From positions 1 to 62,758 of the IMG/VR virus record IMGVR_UViG_3300050033_000335: 62,758 nucleotides of DNA, one strand, 5' to 3'. A model generated the notes under the pieces. It searched no databases, was not told where the DNA came from, and worked only from the letters and a program-made list of their open reading frames with translations. Both the position numbers and the translations under genes were made by a program. The DNA comes from a virus. Positions 3,752 through 56,425 of the stretch are shown one piece after another. Numbering within the stretch: the stretch's first letter is position 1; the number at the start of each line of letters is the position of its first letter.

Positions 3752-3760
3752 GGAGAAAAA

Positions 3761-3960
3761 ATGATATTCCCAGTGAATACACTGGAGGTATATCTGGAGG
3801 CATATCTAAAATGATATTTCCAGTGAATACACTGGAGGTATATCTGGAGGCATATCTAAAATGATATTCCCAGTGAATACACTGGAGGTATATCTGGAGG
3901 CATATCTAAAATGATATTCCCAGTGAATACACTGGAGGTATATCTGGAGGCATATCTAAA
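3761..3960 (+). repeat. Four tandem 50-bp repeats downstream of the terminase
   Basis: Units start at 3761, 3811, 3861 and 3911. They are identical except one synonymous base in the second copy (TTC to TTT). Each has two GGAGG sequences, TATATCT and ATGATATTCCCAGTGAA, which are shared with the array at 1672-1771. There are no variable spacers, so this is not a CRISPR array. Confidence 0.95.
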
Positions 3961-3964
3961 ATGA
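3761..3964 (+). other. Chain of four identical 17-codon mini-cistrons
   Basis: Every repeat encodes MIFPVNTLEVYLEAYLK. The stop TGA of each ORF overlaps the ATG of the next through ATGA (3811-3814, 3861-3864, 3911-3914, 3961-3964), and each start is preceded by its own GGAGG 10 nt upstream. The first is led by AGGAG 5 nt before its ATG, just after the terminase stop. If translated, the mRNA would yield the same peptide four times by reinitiation. The peptide has an amphipathic, Leu/Tyr-rich C-terminal half. The alternative is that coding is incidental to a DNA iteron. Confidence 0.45.
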
Positions 3965-4041
3965 TAGATAATTGGGTCTGGCCTTCCCCGCTAGGGGGGA
4001 TAGAGCGGATTCGTCAGGAGTGGACGCCTTTTTTCACATGA
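3961..4041 (+). CDS. 26-residue ORF ending the mini-cistron chain
   Basis: It begins with the ATG that overlaps the stop of the fourth repeat ORF and encodes a Trp/Arg/Pro-containing peptide (MIDNWVWPSPLGGIERIRQE, then six more residues). It is the exit ORF of the array and uses the same GGAGG site. No similarity is recognised. It could be a real microprotein or simply the first open codons after the repeat. Confidence 0.25.
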   Translation: MIDNWVWPSPLGGIERIRQEWTPFFT

Positions 4042-4064: not shown

Positions 4065-4113
4065 AAAATTAATATTAAAATTGGTTCGCGATTATAAATT
4101 TGTGGTATATTAT
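4065..4113 (+). promoter_or_regulatory. Candidate promoter with shared upstream element
   Basis: A 20-bp AT-rich element at 4065-4084 (AAAATTAATATTAAAATTGG) recurs exactly at 61074-61093. Here it is followed by -10-like sequences TATATT (4106-4111) and TATTAT. The -35 is poor (TTGGTT with a 19-bp spacer). An AGGATTA leader motif lies further down at 4245-4251. It would serve the 4270-5922 lysin and zinc-ribbon operon. Confidence 0.45.
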
Positions 4114-4117
4114 AAAT

Positions 4118-4252
4118 ATGGGAAGAGCTGCTGGCATGATTGAAGGATTCTCCAGTAAAGGTGCCCAGCTTTTTACCTCCTACCGCAGTAAGATTCTAAT
4201 CTGGGCCACAAACCACAATTTAATTAAGCTAACCCGTCAAAAACAGGATTAA
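4118..4252 (+). CDS. Possible 44-residue ORF
   Basis: ATG 4118 opens a 44-residue reading frame (starts MGRAAGMIEGFSSK, ends KLTRQKQD) directly after the candidate -10, with no Shine-Dalgarno. It would need leaderless translation. Its stop is inside the AGGATTA leader motif that elsewhere is non-coding, which argues that the region is more likely a 5' leader. Kept as a weak call. Confidence 0.2.
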   Translation: MGRAAGMIEGFSSKGAQLFTSYRSKILIWATNHNLIKLTRQKQD

Positions 4253-4269
4253 GAGAAAAGGAGCTACCT

Positions 4270-4452
4270 ATGAAACTCAAAGATTTATTGCCATCAGCAA
4301 TAGACGTGACATTCTGTGCAGATTGTACCTATAAATGGGAATTAGTTGGTAGTCACTGTTTAACTTGTATTGAGGATGAATTCACTCAGAAGGTTATAGG
4401 CCCAGCGGAGACGAATGGCTGGGCGGAGAAGGATAAATATAAGGAGATTTAA
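4270..4452 (+). CDS. Small zinc-ribbon-like protein
   Basis: 60 residues with AAAGGAGC before the ATG. Two Cys pairs (CADCTYKWELVGSHCLTC, CxxC spaced 10 residues apart) suggest one bound zinc ion. It is the first gene of a run of four small Cys-containing proteins before the lysin. Function unknown. Confidence 0.75.
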   Translation: MKLKDLLPSAIDVTFCADCTYKWELVGSHCLTCIEDEFTQKVIGPAETNGWAEKDKYKEI

Positions 4453-4454
4453 TA

Positions 4455-4616
4455 TTGACTGCACAAGAATGTCGGGAAGCTGGCTGTCCAGGGATAGATA
4501 GTGATAGCGGGATTCGGTGCTGGCAAGTTAAGGGTTGCCCAGCTTGGGAGGTTAACCATGGCCAAGTTAATAGAAAAGTGGAAAGAAACGGAATGGAGCA
4601 AGCGGATTTGGGCTGA
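4455..4616 (+). CDS. Small Cys-rich protein (TTG start)
   Basis: 53 residues from TTG 4455, with AAGGAG 8 nt upstream and the previous stop 2 nt away. Four Cys in the first half (ECREAGC and CWQVKGC) form two pairs that could hold zinc. It overlaps the next gene by about 60 nt in another frame, so one of the two may be shorter than drawn. Confidence 0.5.
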   Translation: MTAQECREAGCPGIDSDSGIRCWQVKGCPAWEVNHGQVNRKVERNGMEQADLG

Positions 4617-4761
4617 TGGTCCCTCGAAGTCCCCAAAGGTTCTTTGCCGAGTATGTAATGAGCCAGTAAATCCATTAAATCATTATCAACGCTTTGATGA
4701 GAGTCTTTGTACTTCTTGTTATTGTTGGAGCTTTCAGTATATACGAGGATACGGATTGTAA
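4558..4761 (+). CDS. Small zinc-ribbon protein
   Basis: 67 residues from ATG 4558, preceded by GGGAGG. It contains CRVCNEP and, about 20 residues on, CTSCYCW, a two-pair zinc-ribbon pattern. It sits just upstream of the endolysin gene, with 10 nt between stop and next start. Function unknown. Confidence 0.7.
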   Translation: MAKLIEKWKETEWSKRIWADGPSKSPKVLCRVCNEPVNPLNHYQRFDESLCTSCYCWSFQYIRGYGL

Positions 4762-4771
4762 AGGAGGTATT

Positions 4772-5335
4772 ATGCATCATATAAATCATACCCTGTTTTT
4801 GGATGCTTATGCAAAGTCATTAGTCCTTCCAAAACTTAACTCAGCAACTACAATGGGAGTTAATCAATTACTCTCTTTTATAGAGGCCGATCCTTGTATT
4901 AACGACCTACGATGGGGGGCATACTTGTTGGCTACTGCTCTTTGGGAGACAGGCCATACATACTTTCCTATAGCTGAATATGGTCGGGGTGATGGCCATC
5001 CGTATGGGAAACCTGCGGCTAATGGCCAGATCTATTACGGGCGTGGATATGTCCAGTTGACCTGGGAAGATAATTACAAGCTAATGTCTCAGCTACTTGG
5101 AGTTAATTTGCTGGATGATCCAGATCTGGCCTTAGTTCCAGAACATGCTTATAAGATTATGAGTATAGGCATGCGGTGCGGAGATTTTACTGGGGTTAAC
5201 CTGCATAGGTTCATTGATGATGACTCTTGTGATTATGTTAATGCTCGCAGAATTATTAACGGTAGAGACCAGGCCGAACGAATTGCCGGTTATGCTGTAT
5301 CTATTCATGATGCTTTGTATGGGGCCGTGATATGA
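4772..5335 (+). CDS. Endolysin, GH19 chitinase/lysozyme-like
   Basis: 187 residues. The start at 4772 follows AAAGGAGG at good spacing. GH19 enzymes cut beta-1,4 links in peptidoglycan or chitin, and phage versions lyse the host at the end of infection. The family signature runs from LATALWETGHTYFPI through YYGRGYVQLTWEDNY to the AYKIM region, with probable general acid E59 in WETG. There is no signal peptide, so export would need a holin. It is an unusual place for the lysin, between terminase and portal; a second lysin lies at 40100. The stop overlaps the next ATG. Confidence 0.9.
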   Translation: MHHINHTLFLDAYAKSLVLPKLNSATTMGVNQLLSFIEADPCINDLRWGAYLLATALWETGHTYFPIAEYGRGDGHPYGKPAANGQIYYGRGYVQLTWEDNYKLMSQLLGVNLLDDPDLALVPEHAYKIMSIGMRCGDFTGVNLHRFIDDDSCDYVNARRIINGRDQAERIAGYAVSIHDALYGAVI

Positions 5336-5496
5336 AAGTTTTATGCCCAGACCCAGATTGTGGTGGTGCATTAATATATTGCGCTAATTCAGGGCTAGAA
5401 TCCCTTACATATCATTGTAGTAAATGTAAAGCCAAATGGGTGGCCCATAAGGAAGAAAAGGAGATAATTGATGGAATGCCTGACATTATTGCTTGA
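5332..5496 (+). CDS. Small zinc-ribbon protein
   Basis: 54 residues; its ATG overlaps the endolysin stop (ATGA). CPDPDC and CSKCKAKW form a classic zinc ribbon, possibly nucleic-acid binding. It overlaps the start of the next gene by 26 nt. Function unknown. Confidence 0.65.
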   Translation: MKVLCPDPDCGGALIYCANSGLESLTYHCSKCKAKWVAHKEEKEIIDGMPDIIA

Positions 5497-5725
5497 TTAC
5501 AATGCATGGCTTGATTGGGAAATGGAAGTTTGCGATCTTGATAATGAAGATGAAGACTCTTATGCAAAACGTACTGAACCAAAGAAGTTTCCCTGCTATA
5601 TAGGAACTGAAATAGTGGGCTGGGAGGATGGCCCTAATGGAGAGGAGAATGTCGGTCAGCCATTATTTGCTCCGGTTTTCTTCTATGAAGAAGATCTAAA
5701 GAAGATGTTGGAGGAATTGAAATGA
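5471..5725 (+). CDS. Conserved-looking acidic small protein
   Basis: 84 residues from ATG 5471, with AAGGAG about 8 nt upstream. It is strongly acidic (EVCDLDNEDEDSY near the N-terminus, FFYEEDLKKMLEELK at the C-terminus). No domain recognised. Stop and next start overlap (ATGA). Confidence 0.7.
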   Translation: MECLTLLLDYNAWLDWEMEVCDLDNEDEDSYAKRTEPKKFPCYIGTEIVGWEDGPNGEENVGQPLFAPVFFYEEDLKKMLEELK

Positions 5726-5922
5726 TTATTAAAGACAATATTGAATGTTCAATGAGCACGTGCATACATTGTTATAAGGGTGAATGTTTTCATCTTGATC
5801 CGAACATTGGGTATTCAGAAACTGATAGCCGATGCGGGTCTCTTGATAAAGGAACAGGATCAGCTAAGAGCAAATCCGGGTCTGCGGGAAATAGCCCAAT
5901 GATTATGGTGATAGGAGAGTGA
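5722..5922 (+). CDS. Small Cys-rich protein
   Basis: 66 residues. CSMSTCIHCYKGECFH carries four closely spaced Cys and a later Cys (SRCGS), consistent with zinc binding. It is the last gene before the head-module promoter at 5932. Function unknown. Confidence 0.6.
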   Translation: MIIKDNIECSMSTCIHCYKGECFHLDPNIGYSETDSRCGSLDKGTGSAKSKSGSAGNSPMIMVIGE

Positions 5923-5931
5923 ACTAAAAGG

Positions 5932-5960
5932 TTTACTTTTTAACCAGAATTTGATATAAT
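5932..5960 (+). promoter_or_regulatory. Sigma70-like promoter for the head operon
   Basis: TTTACT (5932-5937), a 17-bp spacer and TATAAT (5955-5960). It is immediately upstream of the conserved hairpin leader and the portal gene, and almost identical in design to the promoter at 12944-12972. Confidence 0.8.
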
Positions 5961-5983
5961 ATTTAAGATTATTTAGAGTGCTA

Positions 5984-6039
5984 AACAGGATTATAGGAAG
6001 CCGAGTCACCCATCTAGGGGTGACTCGACTTTTCTTTTG
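5984..6039 (+). ncRNA. Conserved 56-nt hairpin leader, copy 1
   Basis: This block matches 12991-13046 at all but one base. It holds AGGATTA, then a 10-bp stem (6002-6011 with 6018-6027, loop ATCTAG) followed by a U-rich CTTTTCTTTTG. A terminator-like hairpin 40-60 nt after a promoter start site suggests attenuation, antitermination or a short stable RNA. The portal ribosome-binding site (GAGGAG) lies just after it. Confidence 0.75.
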
Positions 6040-6058
6040 TAGTTTAGAGGAGACGGCT

Positions 6059-7879
6059 TTGATTAAAAGATCTAATCAAAATACCCACGAAAACCTCGGA
6101 TCGGTAGTACGCTCTAAAGCCAAGCTTCAGAGGGTTAAAAATATGAGGATCACTTCAGCAGGAGCTGGAGGACGAGGAGATAGAGCAGCTGCTGCTAGTG
6201 TGCCATTTTATTCAAATAACCCCGAAACTTTTACAAATCCGCTAGAAAGATGGCGCGAGTATGCGTTGATGTACCAGACTTCGTGGGAAATTCGAAAGAT
6301 AGTCAATATCCCAGTAGATGACGCTCTACGTAAACCGCCTACGCTAAAAGGAATTTCAGATGAAGCCGGTACTATCCTAAAGAAAAAATTAGATAAGCTG
6401 CAGTGGATACCGGTTACTAAAAGAGCACTTAAACTGGAACGCTTGTTAGGCGGTTGTCTTCAATTTATGGGGTTGGAAGCTGATAATGATGATTCATCTC
6501 AGCCATACCATCCAACCGAAGGTAAAAAACTGTTATTTATGAATTCTATTCCTATATCTAGAATCTCTAGGATGAATTGGTCAACAGATCCATTGTCTGC
6601 AAGTTATATGAGACCATCTTCATTCTATGTAAATAATATCGAAGTTCATGTCTCAAGATGTCTTATATGGGATGGATCTCCATTATTTGATTGCAACGAT
6701 TTTGCACTGACTAACTATAGAGCTAATCTGGCTGGCTTTGGAAATAGTGTTATTGGTTGTTTGTTTGATGATGTAGTTATGGCATGCGGGACTAGGCAAG
6801 CAGCTTATCAAATGGTGCAGATGACTGGGGCCATTATAGCTACTATCGATATGCTTCAGGAGATAGGTGGAACTGCCCCAGGACAAGCCAAAGTAAAACA
6901 ACTTGAGCAGATGATTAATGATTTATCTGTTTATAGGGCAACCTTTTTAGCTGGAGATAAAGTTAAAGTCGAATCATTTAACCAGCAATTCGGTTCAATA
7001 CCTGAATTACTTCTAATGTATCTTCAAGTTCTTTCTGCGGCGTCGGACATTCCTGCTAGTCGTTTCTTAGGACAAGCTCCAGGCGGTCTCTCTACAGATG
7101 ATAGATCGGGGCTTGAAAACTATTATAACCAAATAGATGCTTATCAATCTGAACGCATTACACCCCAGTTTATACGGCTATGTGATGTAATAGGATACGC
7201 TGAAATACCAAACTGGGAAAATGAGAGAAAAAAATTAGAAATTGAATGGCCACCACTCTGGAATGAGACAGCAAAAGAGGAAGCAGAGCGAGCAGGTTTG
7301 ACTATTGCCAATGTACTTCAATTAGTAGATGCAGCACTCATGGGTGAAGAGGCTGCTATTGGGGAAATTAATGCTAGAGGAATTCTGGCCACTAAGTTGG
7401 AGAAGTCCGACCTGGAATTACTACAGAGCGCTCAAGATGCCCTTAGCAGGCACTTGGATCTTCCTAATAGTGGTAGTAGCCTCGAAGGAAAAACACCTTC
7501 TACAAATGATTCTAGGGACAATCCTTTTAATAAGCAGCGAGATGAAGAGGAAGATCCAGGTAAGCGGTCTTTTCCCGGTGGGACAAGTGGTGATCAGAAG
7601 TCCAGCCTACAACGGCTAAAGAATATGGCCAAAATCCAGAATGATCTTTCCGACTTTATGCTTAAACATCTAGTCAAAGAAATAGATTACGATCCAGATG
7701 CCTTTGATCTAAATGAAATAAAAGCTGGTTATGTAGTTGAACAGGAACATGCAGATATAACTAAAGGTGAGCCGGAGAAAGTAATGCGAATAGTAATGGC
7801 TCACATGACTGAAAAGAAAGATTATTATTCTGAACTAGAAAAGATGGAACATGAATCGGAACCTGTAGAGTCAAAATAA
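6059..7879 (+). CDS. Phage portal protein (DUF1073-like)
   Basis: 606 residues. The portal dodecamer forms the DNA entry vertex and docks the terminase. The start is TTG 6059, 7 nt after GAGGAG; the longer open frame from 5978 would translate the leader hairpin and is rejected. Typical DUF1073 features include the N-terminal WREYALMYQTSWEIRKIVNIPVDD stretch, the ALxxxR-like clip region and GGLSTDDRSGLENYYNQID before the C-terminal wing. A charged, low-complexity tail follows from about residue 500. The stop is adjacent to the next ATG. Confidence 0.88.
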   Translation: MIKRSNQNTHENLGSVVRSKAKLQRVKNMRITSAGAGGRGDRAAAASVPFYSNNPETFTNPLERWREYALMYQTSWEIRKIVNIPVDDALRKPPTLKGISDEAGTILKKKLDKLQWIPVTKRALKLERLLGGCLQFMGLEADNDDSSQPYHPTEGKKLLFMNSIPISRISRMNWSTDPLSASYMRPSSFYVNNIEVHVSRCLIWDGSPLFDCNDFALTNYRANLAGFGNSVIGCLFDDVVMACGTRQAAYQMVQMTGAIIATIDMLQEIGGTAPGQAKVKQLEQMINDLSVYRATFLAGDKVKVESFNQQFGSIPELLLMYLQVLSAASDIPASRFLGQAPGGLSTDDRSGLENYYNQIDAYQSERITPQFIRLCDVIGYAEIPNWENERKKLEIEWPPLWNETAKEEAERAGLTIANVLQLVDAALMGEEAAIGEINARGILATKLEKSDLELLQSAQDALSRHLDLPNSGSSLEGKTPSTNDSRDNPFNKQRDEEEDPGKRSFPGGTSGDQKSSLQRLKNMAKIQNDLSDFMLKHLVKEIDYDPDAFDLNEIKAGYVVEQEHADITKGEPEKVMRIVMAHMTEKKDYYSELEKMEHESEPVESK

Positions 7880-8791
7880 ATGGCTTTCCTGCCCACAGAC
7901 AAAGAACTAGCCAAGCTAGCTAAGCGGCGCCCTCGTAGGAGTAGACCGGTCAAACCTAACCGACTGCAAGAGTCTAAACTTTGCCAAGCTATGTCCTTAT
8001 TGTGGAGAGATATACTTCTGCCAGCTACAGAGAGGATTCAATATTTGGTTAGGTCTGGCGCTAGTATCCAAGCCATCACAGACGAACTGGAACGCGCTCT
8101 GTTACTTACCCGTACCCAATATGCTGGCCTAGCTCCTGGAATAATAGACATGTGGAAAGCAGGAGTTAACAGGGAAGTCCAAAACGCTATTGTCAGATCA
8201 ATGACCTCTAGCCTTGGGATTGATCTATCTGCGGTATTAACTCAGCCTGACGTTTCAGAAGCTATGGCTGCAGCTACATTGCGTTCAGTTCAGACGATTA
8301 CTAGCATTCCGTCAGAGTATCTAGGCCAGATAGCGCGGGCTGTAGCTGACAACTTCTCGGGGGTACCTCTTTCTGAAGGTAGATCTTTACTTGGGGAGAT
8401 TCAACAGTTGGGGTTTACATCATATCGGCGATCTAAAATGATAGCCCGTGATCAAACAAGCCGTCTCACAGCAGCGCTTAATGCTCATAGACAGCAGGCT
8501 GTTGGAATAGAGATGTACGTTTGGAGGTGTGTTCTTGATATGGCTGTGGTAGGCAATCCCAGCGGAGTATCGCCTGTGGGAAATAAAGCCCATGGTGATC
8601 ATTGGGATCTTGAAGGTATGTATTGCAAATGGTCTGATAACTCGGTTTATAGTGATGATAAAGGACAGACATGGAAGAAGAGACCATCAGCTTGGTCTAA
8701 ATTAGCTCCTGGGGGGGAAATACTTTGTAGATGCTGGGCAGATCCGATTGTCGATCCACCTAAAATAGTTCAGAAGCTGATAACATACTAA
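7880..8791 (+). CDS. Minor head protein, Mu gpF / SPP1 gp7-like
   Basis: 303 residues. Proteins of this family sit inside or at the portal vertex and help head assembly or DNA ejection. The diagnostic central motif is SKMIARDQTSRLTAALNAHRQQ, followed by YVWRCVLD and the C-terminal Cys-containing CRCWADPIV, as in the Phage_Mu_F family. It starts immediately after the portal stop, the standard portal-gpF gene order. Confidence 0.85.
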   Translation: MAFLPTDKELAKLAKRRPRRSRPVKPNRLQESKLCQAMSLLWRDILLPATERIQYLVRSGASIQAITDELERALLLTRTQYAGLAPGIIDMWKAGVNREVQNAIVRSMTSSLGIDLSAVLTQPDVSEAMAAATLRSVQTITSIPSEYLGQIARAVADNFSGVPLSEGRSLLGEIQQLGFTSYRRSKMIARDQTSRLTAALNAHRQQAVGIEMYVWRCVLDMAVVGNPSGVSPVGNKAHGDHWDLEGMYCKWSDNSVYSDDKGQTWKKRPSAWSKLAPGGEILCRCWADPIVDPPKIVQKLITY

Positions 8792-8806
8792 TTGGGAGAT
8801 TATAAG

Positions 8807-9142
8807 ATGAAAGAAAAAGTTAAAAATGGATCTTGTTATGCGGCTCGTCCCCAAGTCTGTACTAAATGCGGAAAGATAGGTCATCTTTATCAGTCTTGCC
8901 CTGAAAAGAAGCCAGTGGGCCCTGTTGATAATACGGCCTTTATGAAAGGACAAAATATTGCAAGAGTAGAGATTCTGAATAAGATTCAGAATCTGGCTGG
9001 AATTGATTCTAGGGTATCAACTTCTGAGGTTAGACAGGAGTTAAATAAATACCAATATAATCATTGCCCTACCCATGGAATGTATCCTAGAGCTGTAGGT
9101 AAATGCCCTAGATGTAATTATAATTCCGAATTAGCTGGTTAA
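8807..9142 (+). CDS. Zinc-knuckle protein in the head module
   Basis: 111 residues from ATG 8807 (GGGAGA upstream). CTKCGKIGHLYQSC is a CX2CX4HX4C zinc knuckle, the nucleic-acid-binding motif of retroviral nucleocapsid and many RNA-binding proteins. A second Cys/His cluster near the C-terminus (CPTHGMYPRAVGKCPRC) looks like a zinc ribbon. Such proteins bind single-stranded nucleic acid. Its position between head genes suggests a role in packaging or RNA binding, but this is only inferred. Confidence 0.75.
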   Translation: MKEKVKNGSCYAARPQVCTKCGKIGHLYQSCPEKKPVGPVDNTAFMKGQNIARVEILNKIQNLAGIDSRVSTSEVRQELNKYQYNHCPTHGMYPRAVGKCPRCNYNSELAG

Positions 9143-9181
9143 GTGTATATAATACCTTATCAAAATTCATAGGAGTCCAAA

Positions 9182-9475
9182 ATGAGTAAAAAGCTTGCAG
9201 CTATTAATGGTATAACAGTAGTAGATTTTGTTCCAGACCCAACTCAATCTTTAGTTCCTTCTAGCGCTGCATTAATTACAATACGTACAGTTAACACCGT
9301 CGCAGTAAAGATCTTGGCGCTATCTGATATAACTTATTATTTCAATTCAGATTCTACTAAGACTTTCCTTGTAAAAGCTGGTATTGAGACAATAATAATG
9401 GTGGCTAATCCCGGTATTCTATCACTCAACATTGTGAATACTAGTACAACTGCTGTTTATATGCAGGGGATGTAA
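9182..9475 (+). CDS. Putative small structural protein
   Basis: 97 residues. The sequence is rich in Thr, Val, Ile and Ser and predicted to be nearly all beta (NTVAVKILALSDITYYF and similar). It looks like a decoration or fibre-knob protein, but I do not recognise a family. TAGGAGTCC precedes the ATG. The next ATG is 2 nt after its stop. Confidence 0.65.
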   Translation: MSKKLAAINGITVVDFVPDPTQSLVPSSAALITIRTVNTVAVKILALSDITYYFNSDSTKTFLVKAGIETIIMVANPGILSLNIVNTSTTAVYMQGM

Positions 9476-9477
9476 TT

Positions 9478-9798
9478 ATGAGATCTATCATTCTTAGTAT
9501 AATGATAATATTTTTACCAGGGTTTGCCTGGAGTCTTGGCGATATGGGTACTACTCAAGGTAAAAACATCCCTTTTGCCTCTACCGCCACTCCAGGAAAG
9601 GTCATGGTAGATGGTAGTAGTATTACTATATCCAATGGCACAATCTCCTCCCATGCCGGTAGTGGCGGCGGTATAACAGCAGTTACCGGAGTATCCCCTA
9701 TCGCAGTTTCAAGCGGAGGTACTCCGGCTGTTAGTTTAGGGTCAGTACCGTTCAAGAATATTTCTGCCGCACTTAGAGCACACGGCTTCACATTTTAA
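9478..9798 (+). CDS. Secreted fibre-like protein with signal peptide
   Basis: 106 residues. The first ~20 residues (MRSIILSIMIIFLPGFAWS) form a Sec-type signal peptide with a likely cleavage after AWS. The remainder resembles tail-fibre repeats (TPGKVMVDGSSITISNGTISS) and ends KNISAALRAHGFTF. That ending matches internal motifs of the 1,280-residue fibre (NISAAIRLGGS and KNFSAAYRANFG). It may be a fibre fragment, a fibre cap or an independent surface protein. Confidence 0.7.
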   Translation: MRSIILSIMIIFLPGFAWSLGDMGTTQGKNIPFASTATPGKVMVDGSSITISNGTISSHAGSGGGITAVTGVSPIAVSSGGTPAVSLGSVPFKNISAALRAHGFTF

Positions 9799-9907
9799 TT
9801 AAATATTATATAAATCCAAACTATATTGGAAATTTAGCACGTACTTCTCCAAGCATAGTATTTTTATGAATATTTAGATTTTTATTCGGATTTTAGGAGC
9901 TGAATAA

Positions 9908-11065
9908 ATGGCAACCAGAACAATAAGCGATAGCGGCGGTAATTACTCGGCAACCGGCACATGGGTTGAGGGGGTTGTGCCGACAGCCTCAGACGCTGTA
10001 GTTGCCACTGGCACCTCTGGGAACTTAACAGTTGACACAACTGGTAACGCAGCCGCGTCAGTGGATTTTACCAATTACCCTGTTACTTCTACTATCACTT
10101 TTGCAGCAACAAAGATGTTGACTGTATACGGAGGTTACAAACAAATTGCTGGCATGAATATTACTGGAACAGGGTCGCTGGTAATGGCTCTTGCGTCCAC
10201 AATGACATCAGCAGGAGTAACTTTCCCTGGTTCTTTAATCTTCGCAGTGAATGCTACTTTTACATTGGCCGATAATTGGACTCTAACTGGTTTATTGACC
10301 TACAATGCCAATATAGTTGTTCTTAATGGCAATCAAATTACTTGCAACGGAGGGATAACCAATAATGGGACGCCTAGTGGAACAACTAATATTATTTTAG
10401 CTGGTGGAACATGGTCAGGAAGTGGTACAAATGGGCTTTATAATAATTTAACTATAGCAGGAAATGTAACAGTTTCGGGCGCTGTTTATTATAGGAATGG
10501 AGTACTAACATATTTATCGGGAACAGTGACGTGGTCAAGTGCTGTATTGAGAATAACTGCAAATTGCACGCTAAACACTAGTGGGATAACCTGGCCGAAC
10601 GTAACCACAGCACAGGTTGCGACATGGACACTGCAAAGCGACTTAAATTGCACGATTTTAAATTTAGGCCACGCCATAATAACAGCTGGAAACTTTAATA
10701 TTAATTGCGCCAGCTATTTTGCAATAGCTGCTGGTGCTTCCTTAACTGTAAAAGCAGGACAAACCTTAAATATTTCAACTACGATGTTTTCTGGCACGCC
10801 AAGTTCGGCAGGTACTTACGTAAACTGCCCTCTAAAGTCAGGCACAGCCTCAAGCCCAATGTATCTAAATTATCAAGGACCGCAAGCAAATTTAGCGCTT
10901 ATAGGCTGCGCTATTACGGACGTAGACGCTTCCAGTTCTGCTATTCCGTTATTCCAGTATCAAGGAAGCACTCTACTAAGAACAGTTAATATCACGAACA
11001 TAGTACTTCCCCCGGCAGGCGGCTTAATGGGAAGCAGCAGTTTGTTAGGGGGGCTAGATGGCTAA
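9908..11065 (+). CDS. Beta-helix-type adhesin / tail-associated protein
   Basis: 385 residues, starting with RBS TTTAGGAGC. It is dominated by short Thr/Asn/Gly/Val repeats (ITGTGSLVMA, LTIAGNVTVSG, LTVKAGQTLNIS) typical of right-handed beta-helices seen in phage fibres and adhesins. There is no signal peptide. The C-terminus (PPAGGLMGSSSLLGGLDG) overlaps the next gene by 8 nt. The exact role is unknown; it may be a head fibre, because it lies among head genes. Confidence 0.7.
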   Translation: MATRTISDSGGNYSATGTWVEGVVPTASDAVVATGTSGNLTVDTTGNAAASVDFTNYPVTSTITFAATKMLTVYGGYKQIAGMNITGTGSLVMALASTMTSAGVTFPGSLIFAVNATFTLADNWTLTGLLTYNANIVVLNGNQITCNGGITNNGTPSGTTNIILAGGTWSGSGTNGLYNNLTIAGNVTVSGAVYYRNGVLTYLSGTVTWSSAVLRITANCTLNTSGITWPNVTTAQVATWTLQSDLNCTILNLGHAIITAGNFNINCASYFAIAAGASLTVKAGQTLNISTTMFSGTPSSAGTYVNCPLKSGTASSPMYLNYQGPQANLALIGCAITDVDASSSAIPLFQYQGSTLLRTVNITNIVLPPAGGLMGSSSLLGGLDG

Positions 11066-12938
11066 GTTATCAATACTCGGCGGCGCAACTAGCGTCACAG
11101 ATTACATTTTCGTTCAGGACTCGGCAAGCACTGTCGGCGCTGGTAAAACGGGGCTCGTCTACAATACTTCGGGGTTATCAGCCTACTATGTCAGGCCAGG
11201 AGCAGCGTCGCAAGCCGTGTCGCTGGTGACCCAGACCGTAACCGGGGCGTATTCATCGGGTGGATTCGTGGAAGTGGATGCTGTAAACCTACCGGGCGTT
11301 TATCGTATCGACTACCCCAACGCCATGCTTGCGGCAGGGGTACGGTCGGCGGTAATGATGCTGAAAGGGACCGGGATTGCACCGGTAAAGTTGGAGCTAG
11401 AGCTGACCGGATGGGATAACCAGGTATCTAAAATAGCCTCCACTCTTGCAGCTTCGGATGTGACAGGGAATCTCCCTACCAACGTCATCCAGGTCAACGG
11501 CACCGCTCAGACGGCCCGAGATCTGGGAGCGAGCGTACTGCTTGCAGGTGATTTTTCCGCGACGATGAAAACAAGTCTCAACGCGTCAACGGTAGCAACT
11601 GTGACCAACCTCACCAATGCACCGACGAACGGCGACCTTACAGCCACAATGAAGGCCAGTATAGCAACGTCCGTTAGTGGTGTGACTGCTGCTGTCACTG
11701 CCATTACGACCAATACGGCAAGGGGGCGTACTGTTATCCCAGACCAGATGGAGCTGCCTGCTTCCGGTTCTACATCTTATGAAATCAACCTCAACATTTA
11801 CACGCTGCAGGGGGCAATGGATGCCCCCGACTCGGCACCTACCATTCACGCCAGGACTGTGGGCGGGGCTTCGATGGATGCGTCACTTAGGTCCACCGCC
11901 ATGACGCTTATATCTGCAGGCGTCTACAATGTGACCTATTCTGTAGCATCAACAGATATTCAACAGCAGATCCTTTTCACCTTCGCCTGGGCTGTTGGAG
12001 GGGTGCCATTCACTCTCACGGGCACGACTGATGTTGTCAACGTGTATGCTGTGGCCTTTACATCTATCGACCGAACTGCACTGAACGCTATTCCAACTAC
12101 CCCTCTTTTAACTAGTGATACTCGGTTAAATCATTTGAATGCAGATATTTCGGCTATTCCAATTGCTCCACTTCTGGCAAGCGACACCCGGCTGAACCAC
12201 TTGAACGCCGACATCTCAGCCATTCCAATTGCCCCACTCTTGGCAGTAAACTATACGGCACCGGATAGTGCTAGTATAATAGCAACGGCAGTGTGGGCAG
12301 CAGGAGGACGGACACTGACATCTTTCGGCACACTAGTTGCCGATGCCGCAGCCGCAGTCTGGGGTGCTGTGTCTCGAACACTTACAGCTTTTGCATTCAT
12401 TCCTACTGTTGACAAGACTGGGTATACTTTAGATTCTGCACAACGGGTTAAACTAGATGCTTCACAACCTGATTATGTACCTGCTAAAGAATCTGATGTA
12501 ACAACAATAACAACAGCAATTAGCAATATATCAGATCCATTTTCTGAGGTAATTCCAGAAAGTAATCCGGCTATGACTTATGGACAAGCTTTAGCTAGGT
12601 TAACAGTACCTAGTACACTTCCAGTAATTCCAATATTAGCTCTGCCTACTACTACTTATCAGATTCTATATGGGAATACTAAAGAATTTGCAGCTACGGC
12701 TTGGTCGGTAGGCGATATTGCTACCATGACCATTTCTAGTTCACAGATTATAAATGGTGTTATTATCGAACCTGCAATTAGGACGTGCACTTTAGACTCC
12801 ACCGGATTATTTTCTTTTACCCCAGATATAGGTTTAACTAACGTATTAATAACTATAAGTAATTTTAGAGGTATTTATTTTTCTAAAGCAATTTCTCTAA
12901 TAAATACAAACAGCAGTATGAACATTTCAGATTACTAA
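11058..12938 (+). CDS. Large mosaic structural protein
   Basis: 626 residues. The first ~340 residues are encoded in GC-rich sequence. They begin with a beta domain (TDYIFVQDSASTVGAGKTGLVYN, then SGGFVEVDAVNLPGVYRIDYP) that recurs in structural proteins of uncultured phages. A helical repeat region (TATMKASIATSVSG) and a second beta domain follow. Residues near 350-400 contain two adjacent copies of a 23-residue peptide (SDTRLNHLNADISAIPIAPLL) written with different codons. The last ~170 residues are AT-rich and Ig-like. It looks like a fusion of segments of different origin. Confidence 0.7.
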   Translation: MAKLSILGGATSVTDYIFVQDSASTVGAGKTGLVYNTSGLSAYYVRPGAASQAVSLVTQTVTGAYSSGGFVEVDAVNLPGVYRIDYPNAMLAAGVRSAVMMLKGTGIAPVKLELELTGWDNQVSKIASTLAASDVTGNLPTNVIQVNGTAQTARDLGASVLLAGDFSATMKTSLNASTVATVTNLTNAPTNGDLTATMKASIATSVSGVTAAVTAITTNTARGRTVIPDQMELPASGSTSYEINLNIYTLQGAMDAPDSAPTIHARTVGGASMDASLRSTAMTLISAGVYNVTYSVASTDIQQQILFTFAWAVGGVPFTLTGTTDVVNVYAVAFTSIDRTALNAIPTTPLLTSDTRLNHLNADISAIPIAPLLASDTRLNHLNADISAIPIAPLLAVNYTAPDSASIIATAVWAAGGRTLTSFGTLVADAAAAVWGAVSRTLTAFAFIPTVDKTGYTLDSAQRVKLDASQPDYVPAKESDVTTITTAISNISDPFSEVIPESNPAMTYGQALARLTVPSTLPVIPILALPTTTYQILYGNTKEFAATAWSVGDIATMTISSSQIINGVIIEPAIRTCTLDSTGLFSFTPDIGLTNVLITISNFRGIYFSKAISLINTNSSMNISDY

Positions 12939-12943
12939 AAGTG

Positions 12944-12972
12944 TTTACTTTTTAGTTTGACTTTGGTATAAT
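12944..12972 (+). promoter_or_regulatory. Sigma70-like promoter, second head operon
   Basis: TTTACT (12944-12949), a 17-bp spacer and TATAAT (12967-12972), matching the promoter at 5932-5960 in -35, spacing and -10. It begins 5 bp after the stop of the preceding gene and reads into the second hairpin leader. Confidence 0.82.
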
Positions 12973-12990
12973 ATATAAGTAAACATTTTG

Positions 12991-13046
12991 AACAGGATTA
13001 TAGGAAGCCGAGTCACCCATCTAGGGGTGACTCGGCTTTTCTTTTG
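12991..13046 (+). ncRNA. Conserved 56-nt hairpin leader, copy 2
   Basis: 55 of 56 bases match copy 1 at 5984-6039. The stem is 11 bp here (13008-13018 with 13025-13035, loop ATCTAG); the single difference closes an extra pair. A CTTTTCTTTTG tract follows, giving an intrinsic-terminator look. It precedes the GGAGAG ribosome-binding site of the GTG-started gene at 13081. Confidence 0.78.
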
Positions 13047-37051: not shown

Positions 37052-40000
37052 ATGCTGAATAGACTATTAATTATTTTATTCATTTTGCTTTTTGCTCGGC
37101 TAGGATTCGCTGCTCCTGTTGTTTCTTCATCGAGCGGTACGTTTAATAACGGGGCTACAGTGACCGTGAGTGGGGCCGGATTTGGTATAAAAAGCCCGGC
37201 TACTCCGGTATTGTGGTCTGATTTTGCTACAAGCATAAGCCCTAGTAATTTAGGCCAGAAAACCTCATGGGATGGAAATGACAATATGGTTTACTCTACT
37301 AGCCTACCATCTGGCACAGGTACTACCAATGGAGTTGTTGGGGCATGGGGTACTCAAACCGGGACTGCTGCTTTTGATCTGCAAGTTAATCAATCCAATT
37401 ATTCTAAAGTTTATAACTTTACAAAAATGTATTTAACTAATACATCATCTTCGAATATGAAGTTTTGGAGATTATGGCCAACTACATTATATAATGATTT
37501 TGTAGCATCTACCAGCCAAGGTGGAATCTGCCTAAATGAAGTAGATACTACCAATCCAAGTCGCTACCAAGCTGTTAGCTTTTCTCCTAACACCTGGTAT
37601 ACTCAGGAGTTTATGTGGCAGTACTCTGGTGGTACTGGTATACCTAGTAATGGCGGGAATACTGGTATATGGGATTATAAACAAAATGGTCTAACTATGC
37701 AGCATATGGAAAATGTTAATAATAACGGAGGTTATGGTAACACACAGAATAACTTAGTTGATGGGGTTTTTACTGATTCTGATGATCTCCTGCCTAACGG
37801 AAGCAAGGTATACATGACATCTTTTTATGTAGATAATACCTATGCTCGTATAATGATAGGGAATGCTTCTACATTAGCTGCATCTACCCAAAGAGAAATA
37901 CAAATACCGCAAGCATGGTCTGCCACTCAGGCAACTGTAGTTGTCAACCAAGGAAGTTTTGCGAATAATTCTAATGCTTATTTGTATGTAGTCGATTCTA
38001 CCGGGGCTGCTAGTAACGCTCTTGCTATTACTTTCGGTAGTGGTAGTGGAGGAGGTGGGCCGGTGGTCACCAGTTTTACTCTTCCATCTACCTCTGCTTC
38101 TCTAACTGTACCTATCAGTTCTTTTACAGCTACAGATCCAAATGGTGTTACAGGATATTGTGTAACTACTACTAATTCTTCTTCAGGATGCTCTTGGAAT
38201 TCATCCCCCAATACTTCCATTACTTTTGGATCAAGTGGAAGTCAAACTGCATACGCTTGGGCTAAAGATGCAGCAGCAACTATAAGTTCTTCAGTTTCGG
38301 CTAGTACCACCATTAATCTTTCTTCAGGGGTAACTACAGCCGATACCAACGCTAATGCCCGAACGGTGGCTACTCTTTCATATCTTAAAAATTTATCTAA
38401 TCAATATGTTGGTGGACAAATGACGCAAATTGGTTGGGATAATATGATCCCAACAATCAAGTCCAATTTTGGAAATTATCCAGGTGTTATAGGATTTGAT
38501 GCTCATTATGATTATTCTTCTTCAGAGCTTAGTCAATTAGCTTCTTGGTCTAATGGCCAAGGAAGTAATAGCAATAGTCTTATAACTCTAGTTGAACATT
38601 TGAATAATCCTGTGACTCAATCTAGCATTCATTCTCCTGGAAGTGGAAGTGGAAGTGGAACAGCCTGGGATACTACAAGCGTTGACTTTTCTGCTCTCAC
38701 AACTAATTCTAACTTTCTTGCAGATCTAAGTGATGTAGCTAATACCATAGCAACTCTTCAAACAGCTGGTGTTACTGTTCTTTATCGGCCCTTCCATGAG
38801 ATGAATGGTAATTGGTTCTGGTGGGGAAATAAACCAGCCGCACAATTTATAAGTGTTTGGCAATTTATCTTTAACTATTTAACAGTGACTAAGGGACTCC
38901 ATAATATTCTCTTTGTCTATTCTATCAACGGTAATACAGGAAATGACACAACTTACTATCCTGGAACAAATTATGTTGATATAGTAGGTTACGATATATA
39001 TAATGGTGTAAACCCGGTTATATCTAGCGATTATTCTGCCTTAACTGCTCTAGGCAAACCTTTTGCTATTACAGAATATGGGCCTTGCACTGCCAGCGGA
39101 TGTTCTTCCAATACTAATTGGTCTGCATTTATTTCTGATGTAAAGAGCAGTATGCCTAAGACAACTTACTGGATGAACTGGAGTGATAACGGATCTCCTG
39201 CTACATCTGGCAATAGTTGGGTTTATAACTCTTCTGGCACTACCGGAATTTTAGCTGATTCATCAGTTATAACCGGAAATGAAATCTCGCTAGGATCTTC
39301 ACCTTATAGTATTACAACCAGTGTAAGTGGTGGAAATGGTAGTCTTAGTTGCTCGCCAACTACGGTTTCTAGTGGAGGAAGTAGCACTTGCACTTTATCC
39401 CCAAACACCGGATATTCAATATCTAGTTTAACTGATAATAGTAGCAGTGTAATGTCCTCTCTTTCTGGAAAAACATATACTATTTCCAATGTAACCGGTA
39501 ATCATAGTATAATTGCTGGATTTATAATCAACTCTTACACTGTTACAGCTACACCAGGTAGTAATGGTACTTTAGATGGTAGCACTACTTCCCCTAAAAC
39601 TGTTAATTATGGAGGAACAACTGATTTTCTATTTGATGCCAACACTGGATACTATGTTAAATCCATTAGCGGATGTAATCAAACTGCATTCAACAATAGT
39701 CTTAACACCGTAAACTCCCAATCCTATACTACTGGTACTATCACCGGAGCATGCACTGTTACTGGAAATTTCAGTATCCAGGTTTGGCCCATGGCCTTTT
39801 TGGCTGGACCCAATGGGTCTATAAGTGGAACCAGCCCTCAAAATATCAATTATGGGTCTAATTGCACATCAGTTACCGCAGTACCTAATGCTGGATATAA
39901 TTTTGTTAATTGGACTGGAACAAATGGTTTTTCGCTTACTACTGCTAACCCATTAACTGTAACAGGGGTGACTACATCTCAAACCATTACTGCTAATTTT

Positions 40001-40087
40001 ACAGCCACAGTGGGGTCTATAGGGTTGGGAAATGTTATATTTGGTCGGCATGGAAAAATAACTGGAACAATAATCTCTCATCCTTAA
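37052..40087 (+). CDS. GH26 beta-mannanase-like multidomain protein
   Basis: 1,011 residues. Signal peptide 1-20 (LLFARLGFAA). An IPT-like and a jelly-roll-like region (25-320) and an Ig-like region (~335-430) precede a GH26 glycoside hydrolase domain (~435-745). Catalytic motifs: YRPFHEMNGNWFWWG with acid/base E583, and ITEYGP with nucleophile E675. The ~92-residue spacing fits GH26. Three InlB B-repeat-like domains finish the protein (SYTVTATPGSNGTLDGSTTS type). It probably degrades mannan- or related surface polysaccharide. Adjacent fibre genes suggest a virion depolymerase, but a secreted enzyme is equally possible. Confidence 0.85.
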   Translation: MLNRLLIILFILLFARLGFAAPVVSSSSGTFNNGATVTVSGAGFGIKSPATPVLWSDFATSISPSNLGQKTSWDGNDNMVYSTSLPSGTGTTNGVVGAWGTQTGTAAFDLQVNQSNYSKVYNFTKMYLTNTSSSNMKFWRLWPTTLYNDFVASTSQGGICLNEVDTTNPSRYQAVSFSPNTWYTQEFMWQYSGGTGIPSNGGNTGIWDYKQNGLTMQHMENVNNNGGYGNTQNNLVDGVFTDSDDLLPNGSKVYMTSFYVDNTYARIMIGNASTLAASTQREIQIPQAWSATQATVVVNQGSFANNSNAYLYVVDSTGAASNALAITFGSGSGGGGPVVTSFTLPSTSASLTVPISSFTATDPNGVTGYCVTTTNSSSGCSWNSSPNTSITFGSSGSQTAYAWAKDAAATISSSVSASTTINLSSGVTTADTNANARTVATLSYLKNLSNQYVGGQMTQIGWDNMIPTIKSNFGNYPGVIGFDAHYDYSSSELSQLASWSNGQGSNSNSLITLVEHLNNPVTQSSIHSPGSGSGSGTAWDTTSVDFSALTTNSNFLADLSDVANTIATLQTAGVTVLYRPFHEMNGNWFWWGNKPAAQFISVWQFIFNYLTVTKGLHNILFVYSINGNTGNDTTYYPGTNYVDIVGYDIYNGVNPVISSDYSALTALGKPFAITEYGPCTASGCSSNTNWSAFISDVKSSMPKTTYWMNWSDNGSPATSGNSWVYNSSGTTGILADSSVITGNEISLGSSPYSITTSVSGGNGSLSCSPTTVSSGGSSTCTLSPNTGYSISSLTDNSSSVMSSLSGKTYTISNVTGNHSIIAGFIINSYTVTATPGSNGTLDGSTTSPKTVNYGGTTDFLFDANTGYYVKSISGCNQTAFNNSLNTVNSQSYTTGTITGACTVTGNFSIQVWPMAFLAGPNGSISGTSPQNINYGSNCTSVTAVPNAGYNFVNWTGTNGFSLTTANPLTVTGVTTSQTITANFTATVGSIGLGNVIFGRHGKITGTIISHP

Positions 40088-46322: not shown

Positions 46323-47920
46323 GTCTCGGCGAAAGATTTCATACATTATTCATGGGGCTTGAAAAGTCTCATGGAACCTATAAAGTCGATGACTCAAAGA
46401 AGCCAGCTGGCGATAAGGTAAAAGGGAAAGCTCTTACTGTTCATGCATCAGTTACAAATGCGTTATGGGATAGGCATCTGGCTGGAGAGATTGGTATTGG
46501 GATTATTCCCATTCGAGAGGATGGGACTTGTCTTTGGGGAGCTATAGATGTAGATGATTATACTACTGATCATATAGAATTAGGGCAAAGAATTAAAAAT
46601 ATTGGGGCGCCGCTATTAGTATGCCGAACTAAAAGCGGTGGCGCTCATATGTATATGTTTTTCTCTGAGCCTATTCCCGGAACCTTACTTAGGGATAAAT
46701 TAAGAGAATGTTCAGTAGCTCTTGGGGTATGGAAAAAAGAACTAGAGATTTTTCCTAAACAAAAAGCATTAGAAACGGATGCTACTGGTAATTGGATTAA
46801 TATGCCTTACCAGCATGCAGATTTTACTACAAGGTATTGCATTCATAATGAAAAACCTCTTGCAGCTGAAGAATTCTTAACTCTGGCTGAATCTTATAAA
46901 GTTAACCTTCAATTTATTCAATCTTTTATACCTAAACTTGCTAAGAATGATGATAATCTTGATGATGAATGGAGTGAGGCACCGCCTTGTCTGGAATACT
47001 TAGTTAAAAACGGCTTCCCGGAAGGGTCTAAAAACAATGCTCTTTTATCCTTAGCTGTGTATGCCCGAAAACGATATGAAGATTGGAAGACTAAAGTTTC
47101 AGAATATAATACGGCATGGATGAGAGGTAGTTTTGAAGAAGTAGCAGGTATTATTAAAAGTATCGGGAAAAAAGAATATAGATATAAATGCGGGGATGTA
47201 CCGCTTTGGGAACATTGTAATAAAGAGCAATGTAAACGGCGTAGATTTGGAATTGGAGAAACAAGAGGAGTAGGCCGACCATCTGCAAGTGCAGCTGATA
47301 AAGACGCAATACTCTGTGTATTAGAGGAAGTGGATCGGCCGATAAGAGTATATCGTCCGCCTGATGGCAGTAGCGATGAGCCTCAATGGATTTTTCCCAT
47401 GTCCAATGGGCATCAACTGGATGTAACTCTGGATATGATATTAGATCAAGGGCGATTTTTACGAGAATATACCAAGCGATTTGAGCGAGTACGGCTCCCA
47501 GTTCCGGCACCTAAATGGCAGATCCTAGCGAATGAGCTTATGGCTGAAGCTGAGGTAATGGAATTACCAGCGGATGCTGGTCCGGAAGGGCAATTAATGT
47601 TACATTTAGAAGCATTCTGCCTAGGGAAAGTTACCGGCCTGGATAAAGATGAGATTACACTTGGTCATCCATGGACAGATCCAGATGGAATAACTTGGTT
47701 TAGGAGCAAAGACTTTCTTAAATACCTTAATCAAGAGCGATTTAAAGCATTTAAATTAAATGAATTATATGCAATCTTTAGGAAGCATGGGGGTAAGAAT
47801 GACAAATTTATGATTAAAAAGAAATGCTGGGGTGTATGGGGATTCCCTGAGTTTCAACATCAGACTGAGGATTTTGCTTCAATAGTAATTCCCTTAAAGG
47901 ATGAAGAAGAGAGGTTTTAA
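46319..47920 (+). CDS. Archaeo-eukaryotic-type primase (TOTE/PrimPol-like)
   Basis: 533 residues. Synthesises primers for replication. AEP catalytic motifs are visible: CLWGAIDVDDY with D77/D79, SGGAHMYMFF with H110, and later EIFPKQKAL. The segment from about 75-170 matches the primase of TOTE-type systems and many phage replicons. The C-terminal half has a Cys cluster (CGDVPLWEHCNKEQCKRRRFG) and a regulatory-type domain. It starts by ATGA overlap and is followed by the UvrD-like helicase. Confidence 0.82.
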   Translation: MSLGERFHTLFMGLEKSHGTYKVDDSKKPAGDKVKGKALTVHASVTNALWDRHLAGEIGIGIIPIREDGTCLWGAIDVDDYTTDHIELGQRIKNIGAPLLVCRTKSGGAHMYMFFSEPIPGTLLRDKLRECSVALGVWKKELEIFPKQKALETDATGNWINMPYQHADFTTRYCIHNEKPLAAEEFLTLAESYKVNLQFIQSFIPKLAKNDDNLDDEWSEAPPCLEYLVKNGFPEGSKNNALLSLAVYARKRYEDWKTKVSEYNTAWMRGSFEEVAGIIKSIGKKEYRYKCGDVPLWEHCNKEQCKRRRFGIGETRGVGRPSASAADKDAILCVLEEVDRPIRVYRPPDGSSDEPQWIFPMSNGHQLDVTLDMILDQGRFLREYTKRFERVRLPVPAPKWQILANELMAEAEVMELPADAGPEGQLMLHLEAFCLGKVTGLDKDEITLGHPWTDPDGITWFRSKDFLKYLNQERFKAFKLNELYAIFRKHGGKNDKFMIKKKCWGVWGFPEFQHQTEDFASIVIPLKDEEERF

Positions 47921-47924
47921 GAAA

Positions 47925-48023
47925 TTGAGATATTTAGTGGTTTATCCATCACATAATAAATATTTTAAGGAGCACGCACGCATTAGGCGCGAGTGTAAAA
48001 TTCGGGGGGCTGAGTATGAATAA
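47925..48023 (+). CDS. Possible 32-residue ORF before helicase
   Basis: TTG 47925 opens a basic 32-residue frame (starts LRYLVVYPSHNKYF, ends IRGAEYE) whose stop overlaps the ATG at 48016 (ATGAATAA). It resembles a coupled leader ORF. No conserved features; low confidence. Confidence 0.25.
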   Translation: MRYLVVYPSHNKYFKEHARIRRECKIRGAEYE

Positions 48024-48054
48024 TCAGACGGTCATACTTGGCCCCCCCGGTTGA
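48016..48054 (+). pseudogene. Separated N-terminus of UvrD-like helicase
   Basis: ATG 48016 encodes MNNQTVILGPPG and then stops (TGA 48052). ILGPPG is the first half of a Walker A motif, while the second half (STGKS) is in the next frame at 48051. This is the true start of the following helicase, interrupted by a frameshift of unknown origin. Confidence 0.65.
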
Positions 48055-49445
48055 GTACTGGTAAATCCTTCGAATTGCTTAAGATAATAGATATGGAATT
48101 AATTAATGGGATAGATCCTAGTAGAATAGCAGTCTTGACTTTTACTAAAAAGGCCAACGAAGTTATTTTAACTAGAGCTATTGAGAAATTTGGGTTTAAT
48201 GAGAAAGATGCACCATACTGGGTGACTCTTCACGCACTAGCATATCGTAGACTAGGGCTACGACGTAATGAAGTAATGGGACCAAAGAATTATACTGAGA
48301 TAGGAAATGCTCTTGGCCTTACATTTGGAGGGAGTGTTGCTGCAATTGAGGAAGGATTTTATGGAGGTAGAAATAAAGGAGATAGATACCAATTTTTAGA
48401 TGGCTTTGCTCGTAACAGAATGATCACCACTGAAGAAGCATTTAGACTATGCGCAGGAGATGGTGATGAAGAATTAAATAAATTTGAGATGAGAAGATTT
48501 AGCAATACACTCCTATCCTATAAAAAGGATAGAGGCATCTTGGATTTTACAGATATGTTGGAAATTCCTCAAGGGTCAATAGATGTTGATGTGGTAATAG
48601 TAGATGAGGCCCAGGATCTTTCAACCTTGCAATGGGATTATTTACGGCGGGTAGTAATTCCTAATGCGCAAAGAGTATATATTGCAGGAGATGACGATCA
48701 AGCTATTTACCAATGGAGTGGAGCGGATGTGGTGCAGTTTCAAACTCTTCCTGGACGTAGAGTAATCTTGGATCAAAGTCATAGAATCCCACGAGCTATT
48801 CACCAATTAGCTGAAAAGATTTCTTTTACAATTAAGACTAGATGTGCTAAGATGTATAAACCAATGGATAAAGAAGGTTTAATTCGATATTATAGTGATC
48901 CTGAAGATGTGGATTTATCGGTATCTGGTACATGGTATCTTTTAGCCCGTAACTCATATTTGCTTTCTCAATTAATTACAATAGTTCGTGATCAAGGATA
49001 TACTTATTCAATTCGAGGAGAAAGTGCAATTATTAGTAAACACGTAGATGCAATCTTAGCTTATGAAAAATGGCGTAAAGGTATAGAACCATCTACAGCA
49101 GATAAGAACCTGGTGGAAAAATTGTCTACTCACCCTTGGCCCGGTACTATCTGGCATGAGGCTTTAGATAAGATACCTAGGAACGAGCGAGATTGGTATA
49201 TAAGCGTACTTCGACGTGGGGGTAGTCTAACTAAAGCTCCTAGAATTAATATAGGCACAATTCACTCTGTTAAGGGCGGAGAAAGTGATCATGTATTACT
49301 TATGACAGATATGAGTATGGCAACATGGCATGCAGCTGAAATGAATCCTGATGCAGAAAAGAGATGTTGGTATGTGGGCGCTACACGAGCACGGGAATCA
49401 CTTCATATTATCCGTGCACAAAGGGATACAGCATGGGATCTGTAA
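48051..49445 (+). CDS. UvrD/PcrA-like superfamily 1 helicase, 5' frameshifted
   Basis: 464 residues in this frame. SF1 motifs are clear: VVIVDEAQDLS (II), GDDDQAIYQWSGAD (III), LDQSHRIPRAIHQLA (IV), IGTIHSVKGGESDHVLLM (V) and WYVGATRARESLHI (VI). The expected Walker A is split: ILGPPG is in another frame (48016-48051), and TGKS is here. Deleting TTGAG (or TGAGT) would give GPPGTGKS in one frame. TTG 48051 has no Shine-Dalgarno. The gene may be broken, rely on a frameshift in the C7 run, or contain an assembly error. Confidence 0.82.
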   Translation: MSTGKSFELLKIIDMELINGIDPSRIAVLTFTKKANEVILTRAIEKFGFNEKDAPYWVTLHALAYRRLGLRRNEVMGPKNYTEIGNALGLTFGGSVAAIEEGFYGGRNKGDRYQFLDGFARNRMITTEEAFRLCAGDGDEELNKFEMRRFSNTLLSYKKDRGILDFTDMLEIPQGSIDVDVVIVDEAQDLSTLQWDYLRRVVIPNAQRVYIAGDDDQAIYQWSGADVVQFQTLPGRRVILDQSHRIPRAIHQLAEKISFTIKTRCAKMYKPMDKEGLIRYYSDPEDVDLSVSGTWYLLARNSYLLSQLITIVRDQGYTYSIRGESAIISKHVDAILAYEKWRKGIEPSTADKNLVEKLSTHPWPGTIWHEALDKIPRNERDWYISVLRRGGSLTKAPRINIGTIHSVKGGESDHVLLMTDMSMATWHAAEMNPDAEKRCWYVGATRARESLHIIRAQRDTAWDL

Positions 49446-49723
49446 GTGGGAAAGCTAAGAAATTATTTTCAAACTGTTATATGTTAGATGGAACCCCAGT
49501 TAGATGCCCCTATTGTGGCGGATATAGAATCAGAACTAAAGTTAGGGATAGCTCAGATGGAATAAATTCGCTAGAGGAAGAATATTATTGCGGTGAATGT
49601 GGTATTATCCTGGCCTTTTGGTCTTATGGCCATTTTGACACAGAATTACGGGAAGATCCTCCGAATATAACTAAGGCTGAATTAACTACGCAAAATACAG
49701 CCGGTCTTTTGGAGGATGAATGA
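49433..49723 (+). CDS. Zinc-ribbon protein
   Basis: 96 residues from ATG 49433, which overlaps the helicase end. CPYCGGYRIRTKVRD and YYCGECGIILAFWSYG form a two-pair zinc ribbon similar to transcription-factor-like ribbons. Acidic tail. Overlaps the next ATG by 4 nt. Confidence 0.7.
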   Translation: MGSVSGKAKKLFSNCYMLDGTPVRCPYCGGYRIRTKVRDSSDGINSLEEEYYCGECGIILAFWSYGHFDTELREDPPNITKAELTTQNTAGLLEDE

Positions 49724-56414: not shown

Positions 56415-56425
56415 AGGAGTTGTTT

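Follow-up and report, generated by a model that had tools for sequence, protein, structure and literature searches.

How can a single viral gene hold two adjoining copies of one peptide in codons that look as if they came from two different genomes? The question is raised by gene B of the window, as we call the whole stretch of 62,758 nucleotides analysed here, in which two adjoining SDTRLNHLNADISAIPIAPLLA units encode the same 22-residue peptide with a period of 22 residues or 66 nt (Table 1). A sequence-only reading of the locus had already pointed to two adjacent identical-peptide copies in unlike codons, and this was confirmed, albeit for a unit of 22 instead of 23 residues and for copies that occupy 12114-12245 instead of 12115-12246. 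As many as 15 of the 21 codons of SDTRLNHLNADISAIPIAPLL are unlike between the copies, and all 15 changes are synonymous. Going from copy 1 to copy 2, 16 bases change; T becomes C in 12 cases, and 14 of the changes are directed towards G/C. The sole amino-acid difference nearby is the residue that precedes each copy (T for copy 1, A for copy 2), and a degenerate third linker, NAIPTTPLL, lies directly ahead of copy 1. At the DNA level, over a length of 93 nt, the identity between the copies is 74% and the longest exact run 11 nt, and it is because of this divergence that the pair is absent from the output of Tandem Repeats Finder (minimum score 30). A literature search returned nothing relevant on codon-diverged identical repeats. 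A diversity-generating retroelement target was considered and rejected, since adenine-directed and mostly amino-acid-changing variation would be expected in that case, whereas the copies differ synonymously only and mainly from T to C.

Table 1. Features of gene B, its repeat pair and its surroundings, in window coordinates.
Feature	Position	Strand	Description
Gene A	9908-11065	+	385 aa; moves together with gene B
Shared segment	9908-12192	+	98.5% nucleotide identity to IMGVR_UViG_3300050132_000197 (G001)
Gene B	11058-12938	+	626 aa; open frame; holds the repeat pair
GC-dialect segment of gene B	11058-12044	+	two-state codon-usage HMM
AT-dialect segment with copy 1	12045-12173	+	HMM; left edge poorly resolved
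Repeat copy 1	12114-12179	+	22-residue unit SDTRLNHLNADISAIPIAPLLA; AT dialect; GC3 0.18
GC-dialect segment with copy 2	12174-12263	+	HMM
Repeat copy 2	12180-12245	+	22-residue unit SDTRLNHLNADISAIPIAPLLA; GC dialect; GC3 0.73
AT-dialect 3' part of gene B	12264-12935	+	HMM
Promoter-like and terminator element	12934-13046	+	directly after gene B; second copy at 5923-6039

The two copies differ at an ordinary number of codons, but in a direction, towards GC, that is not ordinary. When codons were permuted within gene B, 14.4 ± 2.0 unlike codons were expected against the 15 observed (P = 0.50), and random draws from the codon usage of the window phage (41% GC) or of the 55%-GC phage described below gave 13.1 ± 2.1 and 14.1 ± 2.1, respectively. 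The copies are synonymously saturated, yet they have not been pushed apart. As their differences match random synonymous choice, selection for different DNA is not needed to account for them. The GC3 gap between the copies is 12 codons, with P = 2e-4 by within-gene permutation and P of ~5e-5 to 1.5e-4 with a single usage table as the source of the two copies, values that are somewhat optimistic, like the other P values for the pair, as the tested repeat was chosen by eye. With copy 1 drawn from the usage of the 41%-GC phage and copy 2 from that of the 55%-GC phage, the same gap is no longer remarkable (P = 0.10). The log-likelihood ratio of 41%-GC over 55%-GC phage codon usage is +9.8 for copy 1, exceeding every 21-codon block of the 55%-GC phage, and -10.6 for copy 2, which is under 99.9% of the 21-codon blocks of the 41%-GC phage.

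The contrast extends beyond the pair. As judged by the HMM, gene B follows the order GC-AT-GC-AT, with at least three dialect changes within 1.2 kb, and a composition test places both GC-dialect segments of Table 1 in the GC dialect inside the 41%-GC phage. The switch from AT to GC between the copies is sharp (~12168-12180) and coincides with the copy border. To its left, the AT segment around copy 1 comprises only ~43 codons and the posterior at its left edge declines gradually over ~12045-12090; to its right, the GC segment with copy 2 ends in a diffuse edge (12240-12270). The earlier view that copy 1 resembles the phage and copy 2 the GC-rich upstream part is therefore borne out by the log-likelihood ratios and the HMM, while the single GC-to-AT order that went with it is not. 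The HMM also marks GC-dialect stretches in the major head gene of the 41%-GC phage, perhaps as a result of codon adaptation.

Gene B has no PHROG or Pfam family match, no relatives were found in a search with its C-terminal part (12405-12935), and its AlphaFold model has a pLDDT of 28.5. Its N-terminal domain is 43-44% identical to hypothetical proteins of two phage genomes, one of which adjoins portal and minor capsid genes. In the window, gene B is adjoined by portal/head morphogenesis genes on one side and by head protease/major head genes on the other. This place among head genes, together with relatives in structural modules, suggests that it probably encodes a virion appendage or fibre protein, as a part of the surface.

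Gene B and its partner gene A are also present in an unrelated phage. The shared segment corresponds to positions 47452-49733 of IMGVR_UViG_3300050132_000197, a 49.7-kb viral contig of 55% GC, 14 GC points above the window contig. Its left edge is exactly the ATG of gene A and its right edge is the end of the 55%-GC contig, which stops inside copy 2; what lies on the right of the exchange can be seen only in the window contig. As the segment runs through the whole of copy 1 and on for 13 nt of copy 2, it covers the copy border, and the AT-to-GC switch is therefore present in both phages. Outside genes A and B, no nucleotide or protein match was found between the two contigs. The window derives from a myophage (sheath, portal phrog_146, terminase phrog_3717/phrog_2, and proteins like Pam3 gp33/gp34), and the 55%-GC contig has phrog_38 as best terminase family, phrog_1216 as portal family and one 4017-aa open frame. 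A collection of annotated phages contained no nucleotide relative of the cassette and distant protein relatives only. The gene A protein, possibly a beta-solenoid virion protein, is 96% identical between the two contigs, and its gene is in the AT dialect according to the HMM, except for the first ~90 nt. Being AT-like, gene A is foreign to the 55%-GC phage, and the 5' part of gene B, being GC-like, is foreign to the 41%-GC phage. Since each part is foreign to one of the phages, the composite cassette either predates the exchange or arose during it. As judged from the two contigs, the gene A/gene B cassette has been horizontally exchanged between 41%-GC and 55%-GC phages.

The exchange seems to be still under way. 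Where the two cassette versions differ, they do so in clusters, with stretches of 538 and 664 nt free of any difference (P = 6e-4 for the longer one), and 8 of the 11 changed codons in gene B are synonymous. Another contig, L029 (3300050021), is 12 kb long, and its phage is almost identical to that of the window. Upstream of gene A, only 2 differences separate it from the window over ~5.8 kb (4101-9907). By comparison, the initial 105 nt of gene A contain 4, all of the 55%-GC phage type, although they may include an end artefact as L029 stops at window position 10012; at site 9940 of gene A, L029 agrees with the window. At its other end, L029 reaches ~2 kb past the left end of the window and starts (1-100) in a tandem repeat, TGACGGGTTAGAGTTATTCTTTACTCCGGAACTAGGGAATCAGG.

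The gene B unit belongs to a DTRL-type repeat family with a consensus near AIPTNPLLTTDTRLNNLDAAVSSRLATSGYTAP (PLLTTDTRLNNLDAxISSRLA-like), whose members are found in the window, L003, L017 (Pseudanabaena phage PA-SR01) and L023-L028. Gene B displays the family motif, [PT]LLxxDxRLxxLxAxIS after an AIPTx linker, repeated in one protein, and the units of L003, L017, L025 and L026 are similar to the window pair in motif, linker and strong peptide conservation. In the L003 homologue, which has five units, 124 of 180 identical-residue comparisons involve unlike codons against 121.7 expected (P = 0.41), and in L025 and L026 the units have fewer codon differences than random. The strong GC contrast of the window pair is not seen in the L003 units, where the largest GC3 gap is 2 (P = 0.99). 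Two contigs, of 47% and 53% GC, agree in a whole 20-residue peptide yet spell 16 of the 20 residues with unlike codons, which makes the existence of the required AT and GC parents plausible. In this family, therefore, lineages of different GC normally have the same peptide in unlike codons, and the pair in the window is just what a crossover between two of them would produce. When 15 units were compared, nearly all positions had a codon mismatch close to random and no DNA-level recombination signal was found, which places the constraint at the level of the peptide rather than the DNA. The same near-random codon choice led us to reject a special seam of conserved DNA in the AIPTxPLL linker.

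We consider it likely that the two-dialect pair is the scar of homeologous recombination between peptide-conserved repeats of AT-rich and GC-rich lineages. The copies would be homologous repeats with unlike recent histories, one derived from an AT-rich and the other from a GC-rich phage lineage. At the origin, unrelated phages retain almost the same family peptide despite saturated synonymous sites, as seen for the related units, so that AT and GC phages carry it in unlike codons, and phages of different GC swap the gene A/gene B cassette, as shown by 2.3 kb at 98.5% identity between the 41%-GC and the 55%-GC contig. Crossovers at or near the repeat borders would then generate the GC-AT-GC-AT gene: AT and GC versions of gene B would recombine in register one unit off, leaving one copy of each side by side, and further crossovers would bring back AT sequence downstream of copy 2. 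The reading frame would be kept through the exchange of whole 66-nt units. While the two dialects, the horizontal exchange of the cassette and the saturation of the family are observed, the crossovers, their order and the recombining enzyme are what we infer. No Rad52/RecT-like recombinase was found among the subset of window proteins that was scanned.

Recombination of an AT-rich with a GC-rich homologue had been put forward by the sequence-only reading, and it gains from the significant difference in dialect and from the 2.3 kb shared with the 55%-GC phage; the single junction then envisaged has to give way to at least three changes, with a copy switch common to both phages. Single-repeat relatives of each type had also been called for, and none of either type was found by degenerate-pattern and protein searches of viral_contigs and genome_contigs, which returned only the same-cassette contig and distant relatives. 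These missing parents weigh against the model, as do the need for three or more changes in 1.2 kb and the small size of the AT segment with copy 1. Relaxed recombination by Rad52-like proteins of phages is a documented parallel (PMC3945230): its mosaic joints have short exact runs, 11 bp in the nin example against 11 nt in the window, and with phi80, PCR-confirmed recombinants were obtained at the expected locus with 67% identity and a longest run of 11 bp, at a frequency <1e-8. Unlike these joints, that of the window is deduced from sequence alone.

Could the pair have arisen within one lineage? An ancient tandem duplication, after which purifying selection kept the peptide unchanged while drift saturated the synonymous sites, would account for codon differences equal to random choice, as observed in the window pair and among the identical residues of the five L003 units. 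In this respect, the amount of divergence in L003 agrees with the ancient, independently diverged repeats that had been set against a junction in the earlier reading. The direction of change in the window does not, since copies of one gene under the same composition pressure are not expected to show 14 of 16 one-way changes and a GC3 gap of 12, and in L003, the gap never exceeds 2. Moreover, horizontal exchange of gene B is established independently, and we regard a duplication of this kind as unlikely. The same random level of codon difference weighs on the earlier suggestion that selection maintains the same protein but unlike DNA, guarding the repeat from deletion by recombination. Although an 11-nt longest run at 74% identity would make deletion rare, and perfect DNA repeats may simply be lost, neither the window (P = 0.50) nor L003 (P = 0.41) shows an excess over random choice, the L025 and L026 units are even less different than random, and such selection predicts no GC-ward direction. 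We therefore hold this suggestion to be very improbable.

Artificial or local causes fare no better. Two other contigs stop inside the cassette (G001 at 12192 and L029 at 10012), as would be expected if several phages of a sample shared sequence, and reads of a GC-rich phage might have been joined into the contig of an AT-rich one during assembly. However, the AT-to-GC switch at the copy border is found in both the window and the 55%-GC contig, and the left border at the gene A ATG in both the window and L029. In addition, the cassette versions differ by 1.5%, so that the reads are not the same, and the frame of gene B continues to its stop, beyond which lies the element of which the same phage has a further copy at 5923-6039, all of which makes a chimera a highly doubtful explanation. 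Local codon adaptation or chance, acting without exchange, may be invoked in view of the GC-dialect stretches of the major head gene, but it would have to hit one copy and spare its identical neighbour (P ~2e-4), which leaves it barely credible.

Several other elements of the window deserve mention. The promoter-like and terminator element and its second copy flank the portal-to-gene-B block, are ~115 nt long and share 82.5% identity. In both, a TTTACT-N17-TATAAT promoter-like sequence is followed ~35-40 nt on by the same GCCGAGTCACCC hairpin, perfect or near-perfect, with a T-rich tail. The element has no Rfam match, and its arrangement as a promoter with an immediate terminator points to either an attenuator or a short RNA with a regulatory role. 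Related 50-nt tandem repeats (AGTGAAGGACAAGGTTACACTGCTGGAGGTATATC...) are located at 1672-1778 and 3758-3966, on either side of the gene for the terminase large subunit, upstream of which a 462-aa transposase-like gene (17-1405, phrog_506), largely in the GC dialect, occupies the contig start. A 1011-aa protein (37052-40087) with a glycosyl hydrolase family 26 domain and an InlB-type B-repeat domain is possibly a polysaccharide-degrading part of the virion. At 55587-57400, a TET-associated glycosyltransferase adjoins a radical SAM/SPASM protein, a gene pair that suggests hypermodified DNA bases. Finally, a 15-nt tandem repeat, TACAGGCCACCGGAA, runs in ~14 copies up to the contig end (62544-62758).

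The finding belongs to the known patchwork evolution of phages and does not constitute a new mechanism; virion-module exchange between unrelated phages (PMC10579305) and relaxed recombination (PMC3945230) are both already known. Host-recognition/fibre modules are horizontally exchanged among the Alteromonas phages A5, V22 and P24 (PMC10579305), and fibre genes of P2, lambda and T4 testify to exchange among tailed phages (as cited in PMC3945230). In these cases as in the window, a small module of virion genes is common to otherwise unrelated genomes. What is new is an unusually readable example, in which two phages 14 GC points apart have a putative virion cassette in common at 98.5% identity and the history of recombination is legible in the codon dialect within one gene. 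Mosaicism in phages usually shows up in blocks the size of a gene or a domain. In gene B, individual codons, through their dialect, allocate parts of the same gene to different lineages, and the identical adjoining peptides take away the protein-level differences that normally blur this signal. A near-identical virion cassette in genomes 14 GC points apart implies that the two phages recently shared hosts, or were connected by a chain of intermediates.

More speculatively, and with rather low confidence, the structural proteins of phages might have general coupling joints in the DTRL-type repeats, at the units of which genes of very different GC can be spliced. If so, a crossover within or between units would yield a functional protein, since the peptide is near constant in every phage, and adjoining copies in unlike dialects would be splice scars. 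Should such scars prove frequent in the family, the repeats would mark the sites at which phage structural genes are cut and joined.
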